From an uncultured Elusimicrobium sp. (lineage in GTDB: Bacteria; Elusimicrobiota; Elusimicrobia; Elusimicrobiales; UBA9959), in NCBI GenBank assembly GCA_902783485.1, contig CACZRG010000011.1, positions 1 through 36,573 of the forward strand: a DNA stretch of 36,573 nt, written 5' to 3'. The notes beneath the pieces are model-generated. The model was not told the origin of the DNA. It did not search any database and saw only the letters and a program-made list of their open reading frames with translations. Both the position numbers and the translations under genes were made by a program. This document shows positions 16,982 to 35,888 of the stretch, piece by piece. The stretch's first letter is position 1, and every line of letters begins with the position of its first letter.

Positions 16982-17011
16982 ATTATATAGATATTTTAAA
17001 TATAGTGTCAA
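16982..17011 (-). promoter_or_regulatory. Sigma-70-type promoter of the parAB operon
   Basis: On the minus strand TTGACA (17011-17006) is separated by 18 bases from TATAAT (16987-16982). The start of transcription would be near 16975, about 44 bases before the parA ATG. Confidence 0.8.
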
Positions 17012-17549
17012 CGAAGGCAGGACCTGAATACACGGGACATTTCGGTATTTCTGTGTCCGTACCCGAAATTATGAACAAAAATGCCATTTAGGGCAAATAA
17101 AAAAACAGCAGGCAGGATTTCGCTGCATTTACTTTCTTGTAAACATTGTTGACATAAAGTAATGTAAAAAGTCAATAACTTTGCTCTGTTTAAACATTTC
17201 CATGCAAAAAATAATGATTGTTATTTCATTTGGTTAACATAAGTTTTATATAAATTATTTAATAATCTGTCTATGTGTAAAGGTGAAACTGAACAATATA
17301 TAAGAATTTTTGAAAAGATTATTTTTTCATAACAAAAATCTTCAAAATCAGATTTATAATTTTTTAATCTTTTACTGCATATATAGAGATTTTTTTCAAT
17401 ATTTTTTAGAAACACACTTATCTTTGCATAACATTAGCTCTTTAAGAAATATTGCTTCTTAGCAGATAATTTTACCTTAATAATTTTAACAAAATGTTTT
17501 AAATAGTTAAAAATAACACAAGGGAGACATGTTGCTTTTTTCAAATTAT

Positions 17550-17567
17550 TGTTTTCACGTGAAAACA
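17550..17567. other. parS: parS-like site 1
   Basis: A perfect 18-bp palindrome TGTTTTCACGTGAAAACA. It shares the central TTTCACGTGAAA with the widely conserved parS consensus TGTTTCACGTGAAACA, but each arm is one A/T pair longer before the TG/CA ends. Confidence 0.9.
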
Positions 17568-17893
17568 TATACATATTTAAAAACAAGATAACCAACATTT
17601 GTTATGTAAAAAACATTGAATCCAGATTATTGTATCATACTGAAATTAATTCTCTTATCTTTATGTTTTAATTATTTTCTGAAATTATTTCAGGATGGCA
17701 AAACAAATATTGTTACCATTTATAAATATACAGTACCGATATTATATAGACAGTTTAAATTAATATTTTACTCATTTCAAACAAATTTAACAATAAGCAA
17801 AAAAAACAAATCAACCATAAATCTTTTAAATAAAACACAATCATTATTAAAGTTGATAAAATATTTTATTATAATACACTTAAACATTTTAAA

Positions 17894-17911
17894 TGTTTTC
17901 ACGTGAAAATA
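17894..17911. other. parS: parS-like site 2 (one mismatch)
   Basis: TGTTTTCACGTGAAAATA differs from the perfect palindrome by one base (C to T) in the right arm. It is 344 bp from site 1. Confidence 0.85.
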
Positions 17912-18295
17912 TAATTATTTAACAGTTCTGTCAAAGAGAAGTATTGACACAAATAAACAAAACCCACAGGTATTAAATAATCGTACTAATCATATTTCTG
18001 GATTTCATTAAGTCGTAGAGATAATGAAATAAATTCAGCATGATAAATAACATTATTTTTAATTTTTTCATAAAGAAATGTTTAATATTATAATAATTAC
18101 TTATTAATAGGATTGATACTGTATTATTTACAAAAAAACAAACACATTTGTTCTTAGAAATTAGTTCCCGGATATTATTACACATACAGATATTATAATC
18201 AATTTATGACATTACTATATCATTAAAATAATCCTTATTGTATACGTAAATTGTAAAAATATTAACAAATCACAGATACATTTTTCATTTAATAC

Positions 18296-18313
18296 TGTTT
18301 TCACGTGAAAACA
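18296..18313. other. parS: parS-like site 3
   Basis: A perfect copy of TGTTTTCACGTGAAAACA, 402 bp from site 2. Confidence 0.9.
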
Positions 18314-18653
18314 TTTCATTTTCTATATTACATTTTATATATGATACACCCGTTACAAATAAAAAACAATCCCTAATATTAATTTTATATATTTGACATG
18401 CTCTTTTAGAAATATCTATACTACATATTACATAAATGCAACAGTGTCATAACAAATTTATCTCAGAATTTCATTATGCATAGGAATGATGAAACAAACA
18501 GGGATAACGGGTGAATTCTAAAATTAACACCATTCTTTTATAGTATTAATTCGTACTCTATAAATACTTATATATGACCAAATCAAATTAATTTAATTTA
18601 TTTACAAACATTTTTTATCCTTAATTTATCTTTATAAAACAATATTTACACAA

Positions 18654-18671
18654 TGTTTTCACGTGAAAACA
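18654..18671. other. parS: parS-like site 4
   Basis: A perfect copy of TGTTTTCACGTGAAAACA, 358 bp from site 3. Confidence 0.9.
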
Positions 18672-18922
18672 TTTAGCAACATACATAATTCATATTATAA
18701 TTAAACACTATCATAATTCTCACTTAATTAAATTTATATTCTAAAATTATTCCTATTTTGTTTCATTATTTTAAACATATTATTTTACTTAATTATTTAA
18801 CATTTCCTTCAAATAGCTGTTTATAAAATTACAATAATACAAGTTATTATTCCTTTGTCTATAGTTTGATAAAGAAATTTTGCATTAAACAATGCATTTT
18901 CTGACAATATTTAATAATTTAT

Positions 18923-18940
18923 TGTTTTCACGTGAAAACG
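18923..18940. other. parS: parS-like site 5 (one mismatch)
   Basis: TGTTTTCACGTGAAAACG differs from the palindrome only in its last base. It is 269 bp from site 4. Confidence 0.87.
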
Positions 18941-19087
18941 TTTATATAACTTATCAAACCATTTATTGACAAATTATAAACAAAATGTTAATAATCTGCA
19001 CAACGTTAATTAATTAACGATGATAAAAAAACACAGACTTACTTATATTTACCTTATATAAATAGTGAATCTATATAATATAAATAG

Positions 19088-19117
19088 AAAAGGCCGGATA
19101 TTAATCCGGCCTTTTCT
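19088..19117. terminator. Terminator at the edge of the AT-rich island
   Basis: AAAAGGCCGGAT - ATTA - ATCCGGCCTTTT is a 12-pair symmetrical hairpin. It lies 24 bases beyond the stop of the SPFH gene (minus strand) and would also stop transcription coming from the island on +. Confidence 0.85.
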
Positions 19118-24018: not shown

Positions 24019-26487
<2,469 letters not shown>

Positions 26488-26920: not shown

Positions 26921-27970
26921 TCAGCGCAGAGGCATTACTATATAAAGCGGTGTTTCGTCAGCCTGTGTTTTGAACAGGGCAGGTGTTGTTGCTGTCTTGA
27001 ACTGGCATACAACCTGTCCCGCAGGAATATTCCTGAGAATATCCATTATGAATGCAGGATTGAAACTTACCTGAAAATCCTCTCCCTCATAGGTAACCGG
27101 AATTTCATCTTCAAAATCCATATTCTGGGATGATGAATTAACAACTGCCACACCTTTGCGGAAAGTATACTGCACCTTGCCCCTGTCACTGGTACAGACC
27201 GAAGCGCTTTTTGTAACGGAAAGAAGTGCACCGGAATCAACCAGTACCTCAACCTCATGAGACTGCGGTATTATCTGTTCATAAGCCGGGTAGGAACCTT
27301 CAGTAAGTCTTGAGAGGAAAGATGTTCTTCCCAGAACGAAACCTATCTGATTGCTGGAAATACTCACCTGCATTACAGCATCTTCCTTAATTTCGGCGCT
27401 CTTTATATATTTGTTTATTTCATTAAGAATTTTTGGAGGAACAATAACGCTGAATTCCTGCCCGCTTTTCACTGATGCTGTTGATTTGACCGCAAGTCTG
27501 CGGCCATCAGTGGCAACCATTGAAAAAATGCCTTCCTTGTATTTCCAGAGCAGGCCGTTAAGGAATTGTCTGCTGTCCTCTGATTCAGTGGATGCTGAAA
27601 AAAGAGTGGCATTAATCATTTCGGAAACCTTCAATGCCGGAACAGGGAAAGAATGTGCCGAATCAATTTCGGGAATGGCCGGATATTCATCTTTTCCTGT
27701 TCCACCTATCTTGACACGTGATTTTCCACTCTGTATGGTTACACGGAAAGCCTCATCTGATGATATTGTAACTTCATCAGACCTGAGATTTGTCATTATC
27801 TCCATGAATTTCTTTATTGGTACTGTAACGCTTCCTGGTTCCACAACTGTCAGAGGTATAAAATGTCTTACAGCCATCTCAAGATCCGTAAAAACTATTC
27901 TTACTCCGTCACTTTCTGTTTCAATCAGAAGATTCTGCAGTATCGGAAGAGTTCCGTTCTTTACATTCAT
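26921..27970 (-). CDS. dnaN: DNA polymerase III sliding clamp (beta), frame-shifted at its 5' end
   Basis: This beta clamp ring subunit tethers polymerase III to DNA. The open frame from an ATG at 27970 encodes 349 residues and contains the family blocks TLPILQNLL, FTDLEMAVRHFIP, VKIGGTGKDEYPAIPE, FSASTESEDSRQFLNGLLW, MVATDGRRLAVKS, RTSFLSRLTEGSYPAYEQIIP, and the C-terminal PLYIVMPLR. The first 20 residues of domain I are missing from this frame. They are found immediately upstream in another frame, starting at an ATG at 28029 with a GAGGAAG ribosome site (see next entry). One missing base near 27994-27997 would restore a normal clamp of about 370 residues. The ATG at 27970 has no good ribosome site. 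Either the assembly lost one A, or the clamp is expressed abnormally. Confidence 0.93.
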   Translation of the reverse strand: MNVKNGTLPILQNLLIETESDGVRIVFTDLEMAVRHFIPLTVVEPGSVTVPIKKFMEIMTNLRSDEVTISSDEAFRVTIQSGKSRVKIGGTGKDEYPAIPEIDSAHSFPVPALKVSEMINATLFSASTESEDSRQFLNGLLWKYKEGIFSMVATDGRRLAVKSTASVKSGQEFSVIVPPKILNEINKYIKSAEIKEDAVMQVSISSNQIGFVLGRTSFLSRLTEGSYPAYEQIIPQSHEVEVLVDSGALLSVTKSASVCTSDRGKVQYTFRKGVAVVNSSSQNMDFEDEIPVTYEGEDFQVSFNPAFIMDILRNIPAGQVVCQFKTATTPALFKTQADETPLYIVMPLR

Positions 27971-28029
27971 GCCTGACTGAATGGTCTGAATCTCTTTGAC
28001 AAACTTTCCTTAGAAGTAGTAATTTTCAT
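27971..28029 (-). other. dnaN: Displaced 5' end of dnaN (frame differs by one base)
   Basis: From the ATG at 28029 the minus strand reads MKITTSKESLSK, after which the frame breaks and ends at a TGA overlapping the ATG at 27970. Reading the frame of the main gene from the break gives EIQTIQSG-MNVKNGTLPIL. The joined peptide matches the normal start of DnaN (a first strand, first helix, then TLPIL). The break is in TCAAAGAG (28000-27991 region): TCA AAA GAG would be in frame, so one A appears to be missing. A promoter and ribosome site lie correctly upstream of 28029. Confidence 0.85.
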
Positions 28030-28144: not shown

Positions 28145-29734
28145 TCAGTTCAGATCCTCCGGGTTATTGACATCTTTTATCTTCTGGATAATCTTGTTCA
28201 GATAGTCCCTGACATAGATGTTTTTTTCCTCATTTTCCATTTTTTCCTTGGCGTGAAGTACAGTAGCATGTGACTTTCTGCCGAAAGCCTCGGATATTTT
28301 CTCAAGAGTCATATTGGTAAGCTTTATCGAAAGATACATTGCAACATGCCGCGGGAGTACAAGAGTATTATCCCTTCTTGAACTTAAAATATCCTTTTCA
28401 TCAACCTTATAATAGTCCGAAACAACCTTTATGATTGTTTTTATGCTTATTGGCTGATCACTTGCCGGAGAGCTGAAGAAAGGCCTCAGAAGTTCCTGTA
28501 CACTGTCTATGGTAGCCCTTGCCCCGGTCTGCATACAGAAATTGTGCACTGTACGTATACATCCTTCAAGTTCACGGCCACCCTTATGAACCTTCTCCGC
28601 TATAAAATTCACAATATCTATTGGAATATCAAATTTTCCCTGCTCAATTTTCTGGTTTAATATTGCTACTCTTGTTTCATAATCTGGCAGTCTTATATCT
28701 GCGACAATACCGGACATAAAGCGTGATGTGAGCCTGTCCCATAGATTAAGTTCCTGTGGGTGCCGGTCTGAAGTTATGACAATTCTTTTTTTTGAATTAA
28801 AGAGGGAATTGAATGTGTAGAAGAATTCCTCTACGCTTTTTTCTTTTGCCAAAAGGAACTGAACATCATCAAGCAGAAGACAGTCAAGCATTCTGTATTT
28901 TTCACGGAAAGCCTCTGCCTTTCTGTTTCCAACATCCCTGATGTATTCATTTACAAAAGTTTCAGCAGAGGAAAGAAGAACTTTTACTTTCGGATTTAAA
29001 CGGTAAAGCCCATGAGCTATGGCATTAAGCAGATGGGTTTTTCCCAGACCTGGCGCGCTGTATATGAAAAGAGGAGACTGATTGTTCGTAACAAGCGCCT
29101 GTGCCGCAGAATAGGCAAATCTGTTAGATGTTCCTGTTATGAAGTTCTCAAATGTATAAGCGGGATCGAACATTGGGTGGAACAGATTTGTGTCAGGAAC
29201 AGCCGGGGCTGCTTTTGCAGCTGCTGATTCCTCAGCCCTTAATCTGTCGATAGAGGGCTGCCATGATGCCGTAAGAATATTTTCCTGCCGGTTTGTCTGC
29301 TGCTGTAAATGCTGTGCCGCCTGCGGCTGCTGTATATTATTGTTATCTGTTCCGGAAAATGTGGCTGAAGACCTGTCTGATATGTTTGCCGGGTCTGCAG
29401 GTATTGATTGTTTTACAGGCTGAACATCATTTGATGAGGTAACTGTGTTTTCCGCTCCGTTTTCATCTTCCGCAATTATGTAAACAGCCGAAATTTCCTC
29501 TTTAATACAGAGTATGTTTTTTAGGAAATCTATGATTTTCCTTTCAAACTTTGTCTGAATTGTATGTCTTATCATGCTGTTTGGAATCCTGAGCGTGAAG
29601 ACATTGTTTTCAAATGAGACAGGTACTACCTGCCTGAGCCAGAGGTTCACTTTTACAGCGCCTACTTCCGGATCCTGCTGCAGAAATTCCAGCATTTCCT
29701 GCCATATATCTTTGAAATCTAAAGAGTTTTCCAC
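28145..29734 (-). CDS. dnaA: Chromosomal replication initiator DnaA
   Basis: This 529-residue AAA+ initiator is longer than the usual 450. Domain I is at about 1-90. A Gln/Asn/Ala-rich linker (domain II) spans about 91-185 and accounts for the extra length. Domain III starts at FENFITGTSNRFAYSAAQ, with Walker A SAPGLGKT (226-233; first residue Ser instead of the common Gly) and Walker B LLLDDVQFL. Domain IV keeps the arginine of LPRHVAMYL but has FGRKSHATVLHA where most DnaA proteins read FGGRDHTTVLHA, so the positions of E. coli Asp433 and Thr435 are Ser and Ala. The start is a GTG at 29734 without a Shine-Dalgarno sequence, which matches the normal N-terminus (ENSLDFKDIWQEML). The gene precedes dnaN. 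Confidence 0.97.
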   Translation of the reverse strand: MENSLDFKDIWQEMLEFLQQDPEVGAVKVNLWLRQVVPVSFENNVFTLRIPNSMIRHTIQTKFERKIIDFLKNILCIKEEISAVYIIAEDENGAENTVTSSNDVQPVKQSIPADPANISDRSSATFSGTDNNNIQQPQAAQHLQQQTNRQENILTASWQPSIDRLRAEESAAAKAAPAVPDTNLFHPMFDPAYTFENFITGTSNRFAYSAAQALVTNNQSPLFIYSAPGLGKTHLLNAIAHGLYRLNPKVKVLLSSAETFVNEYIRDVGNRKAEAFREKYRMLDCLLLDDVQFLLAKEKSVEEFFYTFNSLFNSKKRIVITSDRHPQELNLWDRLTSRFMSGIVADIRLPDYETRVAILNQKIEQGKFDIPIDIVNFIAEKVHKGGRELEGCIRTVHNFCMQTGARATIDSVQELLRPFFSSPASDQPISIKTIIKVVSDYYKVDEKDILSSRRDNTLVLPRHVAMYLSIKLTNMTLEKISEAFGRKSHATVLHAKEKMENEEKNIYVRDYLNKIIQKIKDVNNPEDLN

Positions 29735-32799: not shown

Positions 32800-32894
32800 C
32801 CCCGTATAACCGCTGCCCGGGAAAAATGTACGGTGGTATGGAAATAAAGCAGAAAAAACATATAGAATAAATATACTAAGGAGAATATAAAATT

Positions 32895-33962
32895 ATGGAC
32901 ATGGTAACCATTCTTAAAACCGCTGTTCAGCTTGGGTCCAGCGATATTCATATATGTGTCAACAAGCCGCCAATGATGAGACTTAACGGCGACATGGTTC
33001 CTATTATGGCCAACCTTCCGCCCCTTAAGGCGGAGCAGACCAAGGCGCTTATTTATTCAACACTTAATTCGGAACAGCGTCAGAAATTCGAGCAGACATG
33101 GGAACTGGACTCTTCTTTTTCGCTTAACGGCGTATCCAGGTTCCGTCTGAATGTTCTTACCACACGTTATGGCGTGGAGGCTGTAATGAGGGTTATTCCT
33201 TCAGTAATACCTTCACCGGAACAGCTTGAGCTTTCACCAAGTATCGTGAATTTTTCCAGACTTCCCAAAGGTCTTGTTCTTGTCACTGGTCCAACAGGTT
33301 CAGGAAAATCAACTACTCTTGCATCTCTTATAAATCAGATAAACGCCAATATGCGCAAGCATATACTTACCATAGAGGACCCCATAGAATTTACATACGA
33401 GCCCAAGTCAAGTATCATAAGGCAGCGCGAGGTGGGCCAGCACACAAAGAGTTTTTCTGCGGCACTGCGCTCTGCGCTGCGAGAAGACCCAAATGTGATA
33501 CTTGTGGGCGAAATGCGCGATCTTGAGACCATTCAGCTTACCATAACTGCTGCGGAAACCGGACATCTTACATTCGCCACGCTGCATACGCAGGATGCTC
33601 CCTCAACAATAGACCGCATTGTTGACGTTTTCCCTACACATCAGCAGGAGCAGATAAGGGTTCAGCTGGCATCATGTCTGCAGGGTGTTGTTTCCCAGAT
33701 TCTGCTGCCCCGCGCGGACGGCAGAGGCCGCATAGCTGCACGCGAGATAATGATAATGACCCCGGCCATAGCCAATCTTGTGCGCGAGGGAAAGACCCAC
33801 ATGATATACAGTGCTGTTGAAACCGGCGCCAAATTCGGCATGATTCCAATGGACAGGGCTTTGGCCAACCTGGTAATACAGAACAAAATAACCTATGAGA
33901 CAGCTCTCTCAAAAGCGCATGACAAGGAAGTCATCATGAAACTTTGCGGAAAAGCTATGTAA
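32895..33962 (+). CDS. pilT: Type IV pilus retraction ATPase PilT
   Basis: This 355-residue hexameric secretion ATPase depolymerises pili for twitching motility. It has the PAS-like N-terminal domain (SSDIHICVNKPPMMRLNGDM, 15-34), Walker A GPTGSGKST (132-140), an Asp box region LTIEDPIEFTY (158-168), Walker B VILVGEMRDLET (201-212) and the His box AAETGHLTFATLHT (219-232). The C-terminal AIANLVREGKTHMI corresponds to the AIRNLIRE motif required for retraction. A good AAGGAG ribosome site precedes the ATG. It is nine bases upstream of a cyclic-nucleotide-binding-like gene, so they are probably one operon. The pilMN-pilO operon lies at the other side of the window. Confidence 0.96.
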   Translation: MDMVTILKTAVQLGSSDIHICVNKPPMMRLNGDMVPIMANLPPLKAEQTKALIYSTLNSEQRQKFEQTWELDSSFSLNGVSRFRLNVLTTRYGVEAVMRVIPSVIPSPEQLELSPSIVNFSRLPKGLVLVTGPTGSGKSTTLASLINQINANMRKHILTIEDPIEFTYEPKSSIIRQREVGQHTKSFSAALRSALREDPNVILVGEMRDLETIQLTITAAETGHLTFATLHTQDAPSTIDRIVDVFPTHQQEQIRVQLASCLQGVVSQILLPRADGRGRIAAREIMIMTPAIANLVREGKTHMIYSAVETGAKFGMIPMDRALANLVIQNKITYETALSKAHDKEVIMKLCGKAM

Positions 33963-33971
33963 GGAGGCAAA

Positions 33972-34856
33972 ATGGCGGATCTGGAAAAATTAAAAAAAGT
34001 ATCACTGTTTTACGGTCTTTCCGATCAGACACTGACGGATTTCAAGGATCATTTCAAACTGCTTGATTTTGATTCAGACCATATAATATTCAAGGAAGAC
34101 TCCGAAGGCGACACAATGTACATAATTGTGGACGGCGAGGTTTTCATAGAAAAAAGGCTTGATGCTGAAGAAGTTGAGCATAAGGTTCTGGCAGTTCTTA
34201 CTGACGGCGAATTCTTCGGTGAGATGGCAGTTCTTGAAAATCAGAAGCGTTTTGCCCGCGCCAGGGTAGGGCGGCCGTCTACCATATACGAGATACGCCG
34301 CAGTGATCTTTACGAATTCATAAAAAAATACCCGGAAAGCGGCATTCATTTTTATAACGGCATTATGAGAACACTGCTTAAACGCCTGCGCCATACTTCA
34401 AATGAGCTTACCATGCTCTTTGACCTGTGCCGCCAGCTTATGGTGCAGCATAAAACACCGGCGGACTTTCTTGCCATATCCATTGACGAGATAAGGCCGT
34501 ATCTTGCCGGAAAATGGAATTTCAATGCGTTCATATACAATATGTTCAACGAGGAATATGATCAGTGTTATGAGTTCACCACTTATGATCAGCCTGCGGA
34601 GGAACGCGTTATTCCCGCCAGGCCGGTAAACGGCTGGGCGGATAACCGCACATATTTCATGGTTCTGGAAAGGGACGGCAGAAAACTTGGCTGCGTGCGT
34701 TTCTGCAAGGAAGTTCCTGTGGACAAGGCGGAAAAGAACAATCTGGAAACCATACTCAACACCATTTCGTATATAATCAATGCGAATATTGTTGACGTGG
34801 AGCACCAGGCAGAGCTTGCCCTGCTGGCAAAACTTAAAAAGGCGAAATCGTACTAA
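33972..34856 (+). CDS. Cyclic-nucleotide-binding-like protein coupled to pilT
   Basis: This 294-residue cytoplasmic protein has an N-terminal CRP-type nucleotide-binding fold (about 10-125; DHIIFKEDSEGDTMYIIVDGEVFIEKR, then the cassette DGEFFGEMAVLENQKRFARARV). The phosphate-binding cassette has FARAR in place of the usual RSAT, so ligand binding may be changed or lost. The second half (about 140-290) looks like a GAF-type module (LDLCRQLMVQ with FMVLERDGRKLGCVRFCKEV) and there is no helix-turn-helix, so it is not a transcription factor. A perfect GGAGG ribosome site begins within the pilT stop region and the gap is nine bases. A role as a regulator of pilus retraction is inference from position. 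Confidence 0.75.
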   Translation: MADLEKLKKVSLFYGLSDQTLTDFKDHFKLLDFDSDHIIFKEDSEGDTMYIIVDGEVFIEKRLDAEEVEHKVLAVLTDGEFFGEMAVLENQKRFARARVGRPSTIYEIRRSDLYEFIKKYPESGIHFYNGIMRTLLKRLRHTSNELTMLFDLCRQLMVQHKTPADFLAISIDEIRPYLAGKWNFNAFIYNMFNEEYDQCYEFTTYDQPAEERVIPARPVNGWADNRTYFMVLERDGRKLGCVRFCKEVPVDKAEKNNLETILNTISYIINANIVDVEHQAELALLAKLKKAKSY

Positions 34857-34885
34857 TCAGCCCTGGTAAACAGAAAAACGGAAAG

Positions 34886-34916
34886 CGCCGGGAAAACATT
34901 ATTTCCCGGCGTTTTT
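34886..34916 (+). terminator. Terminator of the pilT operon
   Basis: CGCCGGGAAA - ACATTA - TTTCCCGGCG forms a ten-pair hairpin followed by TTTTT, 29 bases after the stop codon. Confidence 0.88.
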
Positions 34917-35032
34917 ATATTGTCCGGAAACACACGGCCAGGCCGGCGGATATTTATTTACCGTCCTTCCCTGTATTATATGAAGAATGTTTTTTCGTTA
35001 ACCTGCGTGTTTCATGTTTTGATGAAGCATTG

Positions 35033-35060
35033 TTGTATCTTTTTTCCTATTATGTATAAT
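35033..35060 (+). promoter_or_regulatory. Promoter of the outer-membrane protein gene
   Basis: TATAAT at 35055-35060 is preceded by TTGTAT at 35033-35038 with a 16-base spacer. The predicted start is about 55 bases before the ATG at 35120. Confidence 0.6.
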
Positions 35061-35119
35061 AAGTGAAAAGACCAGGGCAGCTGGTGTTCCTGAATGTAAA
35101 AACAAAAAGGAGAAATGTC

Positions 35120-35719
35120 ATGAAAAAAATATTAGCCATAGCCGCAATAGCTTTAATGATTCCTGCCGCAGCATATTCTCAGCAGTATTCTGAACTGGAC
35201 ATAGGTGTGGGTTTGGCCATACCGGTAAATGATACAGGCCTTCAGGGTCTGACAAATGACAATGTTTCATGGGGTAATGCCGGTTTTGGCCTAAACGCGG
35301 AACTGCTTACGCAGATTAATGATAATCTGTCCCTGGGGCTTGGTCTTGATTACACTTTCTACGGCGGCGAGGAAGAAAACCTGTTTACAGCCATGGGAGC
35401 GCAGAAACTTGAGGTAAGCCCGGAAAGCTATGGCATAACAGCTGCGGCAAGAATAAAACCTGGCGACAGCAGATTCTATTTTCCTGTAGGCATCGGATAT
35501 TCAGTCGTGAAAGCAAATGTGAAATCCAGCGGGCTTACTAATGGTGACAAGGATTATTCCGACGGCGGTATTTCCTATTATGCCGGCCTGGGTTATTCTG
35601 TGACTTCATGGAATTTTGAAGTAAGATATTCTTCACTGCCAAAGGTTAAGGTGGAAAATAACAAAAGCAATAATCTGAATGCCGTGAATATTCTTGTAAA
35701 ATACAGGTTTGCGCTGTAA
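35120..35719 (+). CDS. Outer-membrane beta-barrel protein (OmpA/OmpX-type fold)
   Basis: I chose the ATG at 35120, which has AAGGAG seven bases upstream and opens with a signal peptide (MKKILAIAAIALMIPAAAYS-QQ). A longer frame starting at 35063 would hide that signal. The mature 180 residues alternate hydrophobic and polar positions in about eight strands (YSELDIGVGLAIPV, NAGFGLNAELLTQI, NLSLGLGLDYTFYGG, YGITAAARIKPG, FYFPVGIGYSVVKANV, ISYYAGLGYSVTSWNFEVRYSSLP) and end with VNILVKYRFAL, with a terminal aromatic/hydrophobic pattern expected for barrel insertion. The ligand or function is unknown. It has its own promoter and terminator. Confidence 0.8.
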   Translation: MKKILAIAAIALMIPAAAYSQQYSELDIGVGLAIPVNDTGLQGLTNDNVSWGNAGFGLNAELLTQINDNLSLGLGLDYTFYGGEEENLFTAMGAQKLEVSPESYGITAAARIKPGDSRFYFPVGIGYSVVKANVKSSGLTNGDKDYSDGGISYYAGLGYSVTSWNFEVRYSSLPKVKVENNKSNNLNAVNILVKYRFAL

Positions 35720-35734
35720 TAATATTATGCCGGT

Positions 35735-35764
35735 AAAAAAAGCGGGAATTTTCCCGCTTTTTTT
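35735..35764 (+). terminator. Terminator after the outer-membrane protein gene
   Basis: AAAAAAAGCGGGAA - TT - TTCCCGCTTTTTTT is a symmetrical hairpin with a T tract, 16 bases after the stop codon. Confidence 0.88.
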
Positions 35765-35888
35765 ATGCCCTGATTATGTTTTGCCTGTTAAGACTATATT
35801 TTATTCTCATAAGTTTATACCCCTATAGATATTATATCAGAAAACATTGCCTGGCAATGAGCGCAGAAATTGTGTTATAAAAACTCAG

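Follow-up and report, generated by a model that had tools for sequence, protein, structure and literature searches.

A one-base frame break at the conserved start of dnaN in a draft Elusimicrobia metagenome bin most likely does not reflect the biology of the species

The dnaN locus of the window, by which we mean the whole 36,573-nucleotide stretch analysed (contig C11 of its bin), raises the question of whether this organism makes its sliding clamp in an unusual way or whether the gene was deposited one base short. Three minus-strand genes lie here in the order dnaA (29734-28145), dnaN and gyrB, and the body frame of dnaN (26921-27970, minus strand) is intact and encodes 349 amino acids from an ATG at 27970-27968, with no ATG, GTG or TTG further upstream before a stop is reached. 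The conserved start of the gene, an ATG at 28029, is offset from this frame by one base, as the initial annotation had described, and opens a short frame (27967-28029, minus strand) of just 20 codons (MKITTSKESLSKRFRPFSQA) that closes at a TGA at 27969-27967, overlapping the internal ATG as ATGA. Between the two lie ten codons of the body frame, VKEIQTIQSG (27971-28000, minus strand), which are conserved in relatives and stand here without an in-frame start codon. GAGGAAG, reported earlier as a ribosome site, is present at 28042-28036 on the minus strand, 6 nt before ATG 28029, and is likely a Shine-Dalgarno sequence, with a comparable AGAGGA-type site in the corresponding position in most relatives. 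What had been called a perfectly placed promoter is found as TTGACA-17-TAAAAT at 28121-28093 (minus strand), which we retain as promoter-like on its consensus match, 11 of 12 positions.

The identity of the gene is that of DnaN, the DNA polymerase III beta sliding clamp (TIGR00663, PF00712). The 349-residue frame scores 252 bits against a TIGR00663 cut-off of 137.65 and matches profile positions 23-366 of 367, so that the body, from residue 21 through to the C-terminal MPLR, reads as a complete clamp. Its setting is also that of a known dnaN, as it adjoins dnaA (28145-29734) and lies upstream of gyrB (24019-26478), both on the dnaN strand, and of gyrA. Unlike known DnaN, its first 20 codons are one base out of frame, and profile positions 1-22 are absent from the 349-residue frame, residues 1-20 not being in one frame with the body.

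Comparison with relatives places the break in this record and in no other that we inspected. The same-genus comparison rests on one genome, the metagenome-assembled genome RUI522 (JAILAB010000045.1, Elusimicrobiales; hereafter the sister), which is the only genome of the genus found besides the window's own. The window contig matches it over 19.0-35.8 kb, where gene order is the same, and across a large part of the first 17 kb. The sister clamp is 75% identical to that of the window but differs in having its N-terminal frame intact, MKITTSKENFVKEIQTIQSG. In the sister and in 40 of 40 other related Elusimicrobia records the 20 N-terminal codons are in frame, with the start at -20, and solved clamps, E. 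coli 1mmi among them (query 1-369 to chain 1-365), align with the sister protein from residue 1. Among 16 aligned clamps M1, I3, K12, Q15, I17, Q18 and G20 are nearly invariant, and the window row has no residues at 1-20, owing to the frame break.

The same alignments indicate where the base is missing. The sister reads ATGAAAATAACTACTTCTAAGGAAAATTTTGTCAAAGAAATC... where the window reads ATGAAAATTACTACTTCTAAGGAAAGTTTGTCAAAGAGATT..., and the difference in length falls in a T run (AAA on the plus strand) at 28001-28003, which is TTT in the window and TTTT in the sister. The initial annotation had placed the loss elsewhere, proposing one added A in TCAAAGAG near 27994-27997, a position that the alignment does not support; the sister has the same three A's there as the window, those of GTCAAAGA, and encodes ..ENFVKEIQTIQSG. 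The residues LSK of that annotation are already out of frame. At the junction most relatives have (L)(I/L)KG(I/L/M)Q and the sister has FVKEIQ, so the window junction is best taken as FVKEIQ and not LSKEIQ, giving SFVKEIQTIQSG as the expected residues. On this alignment the base is most likely missing from the T run at 28001-28003, in codons 9-10.

The pattern of substitution bears on how long the frame has been broken. Between the gap and the internal ATG the window differs from the sister at four sites within ten codons. All four are third-position changes that are silent, an outcome with P = 0.0014 for four random substitutions in that stretch. The stretch was therefore still being translated in the body frame until recently, as it had been for most of the period since the two species diverged, which argues against long-standing use of the internal start. 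In the body of the gene 122 of 210 codons that differ from the sister are silent and the conserved clamp residues are retained in the alignment, indicating that the gene is not decaying. Judged from the sequence, the silent-only divergence fits an assembly error and a very recent mutation alike and does not separate them.

If the mutation is a genuine and very recent one-base deletion, the clamp could be made as the 349-residue product from ATG 27970, aided by termination-reinitiation at the ATGA, a reading that we regard as unlikely. An ATGA stop-start overlap permits termination-reinitiation in known cases, and here the TGA of the short frame overlaps ATG 27970 in just this way; the shortened product also scores above the TIGR00663 cut-off, as given above, and in an AlphaFold model it keeps most of its remaining elements at a mean pLDDT of 82.5. 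The first ten residues of that model, however, average only 32, and the AlphaFold model of the sister clamp (mean pLDDT 84.4) has a strand at residues 2-6 and a helix at 7-18, which bears out the earlier statement that the 20 residues form the first strand and helix of domain I. A start at 27970 would remove both, and every relative checked keeps the residues that would be lost. Such models are no test of clamp stability or ring assembly. An essential single-copy clamp that lacks strand 1 and helix 1 of domain I seems unlikely as a working form. The internal ATG itself is common to the window and the sister only, and in the sister it is an ordinary in-frame methionine; other relatives have mostly valine there, with a few leucines or threonines. 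Together with the conservation of the 20 upstream codons this makes the internal ATG unlikely as a settled native start. The initial annotation was right to set it beside an assembly error and a rescued mutation as the options to be weighed. Since the sister carries the same ATGA letters without a break, the overlap is a by-product of the deletion, arising by chance, and rescue by termination-reinitiation is possible but unsupported. That the species as a whole really uses a 349-residue clamp, made by this route, strikes us as very improbable. A real, fixed deletion would mean that an essential ring protein does its work lacking an element which every relative examined has kept.

The deletion might otherwise be a genuine recent strain allele. 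It would then either inactivate the gene and be held at low frequency, or be rescued by slippage, at a low level, of the ribosome or the polymerase. The silent-only divergence accommodates a young real mutation of this kind, the frame having been intact until recently, but by inspection the junction, where the zero frame reads TTG TCA AAG AGA, shows no X XXY YYZ slippery heptamer, and a run of three T's is short for polymerase slippage; we consider this explanation rather improbable, slightly more so than the recent deletion with a shortened clamp. Conserved programmed frameshifting in the dnaN of this lineage has the frame break itself in its favour and nothing else. A programmed -1 frameshift would be expected to show a conserved break with a slippery heptamer, whereas the same-genus genome and all other relatives are in frame and inspection found no such motif, and we give this reading almost no weight.

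We consider an ordinary full-length clamp, about 369 residues long, to be what the living population probably encodes; the missing base would be an error in the consensus of the metagenome bin or come from a minor strain variant caught in the assembly. The dnaN gene here is thus an ordinary beta sliding clamp gene, deposited one base short. The break and where it falls are shown directly; that an error rather than a real allele underlies the shortfall is what we infer from the comparisons. In favour of this, the sister and 40 other records are in frame, the divergence just before the internal ATG is silent, the body is not decaying, and the bin is fragmentary (256 contigs, 1.95 Mb, 86% complete) with one dnaN locus, a search across it finding neither a second dnaN copy nor an overlapping contig. 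Several observations count against an error. When about 200 kb of the bin was compared with about 620 kb of the sister, of which about 41 kb aligned as orthologous coding sequence, no further frameshift was found in this bin within those 41 kb; the bin is therefore not generally indel-rich, which favours a genuine deletion with a 349-residue clamp. The 3-versus-4 T run is no long homopolymer. Over an equal amount of sequence one candidate frameshift turns up in the sister too (L136, 18802-19265, against an intact 154-amino-acid frame in this bin at L091, 1784-2248), so either genome may contain real breaks of this kind. The rate estimated in this way does not decide between error and mutation; a lone break such as this would fit any of three origins, an isolated consensus error, a strain variant or a young mutation. 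Searching IMG/VR with the junction in either run length gave no match, and literature searches, judged on titles and abstracts, brought up nothing that settles the matter. The deposited sequence does contain the frame break, which is ordinary in kind and most likely no biological feature of the species. The more probable lesson is that drawing biology from a draft metagenome bin calls first for a comparison of its reading frames with those of relatives, essential genes included.

Two further observations concern other parts of the window. The stretch 32878-35812 has about 94% DNA identity to the sister, against about 74% in the neighbouring dnaA-dnaN region, which may reflect unusually high conservation or recent exchange. 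At 17911-18091 the window carries one copy of a dispersed intergenic repeat that contains palindromes such as CTGAAATAAATTCAGCATGAC; the copy sits in a non-coding stretch of 20-24% GC (about 17000-19100) between parA and an hflC-like gene. The repeat has no Rfam match, and about 35 matches to it are spread over many contigs of the same-genus genome, with one more in the sampled part of the bin.
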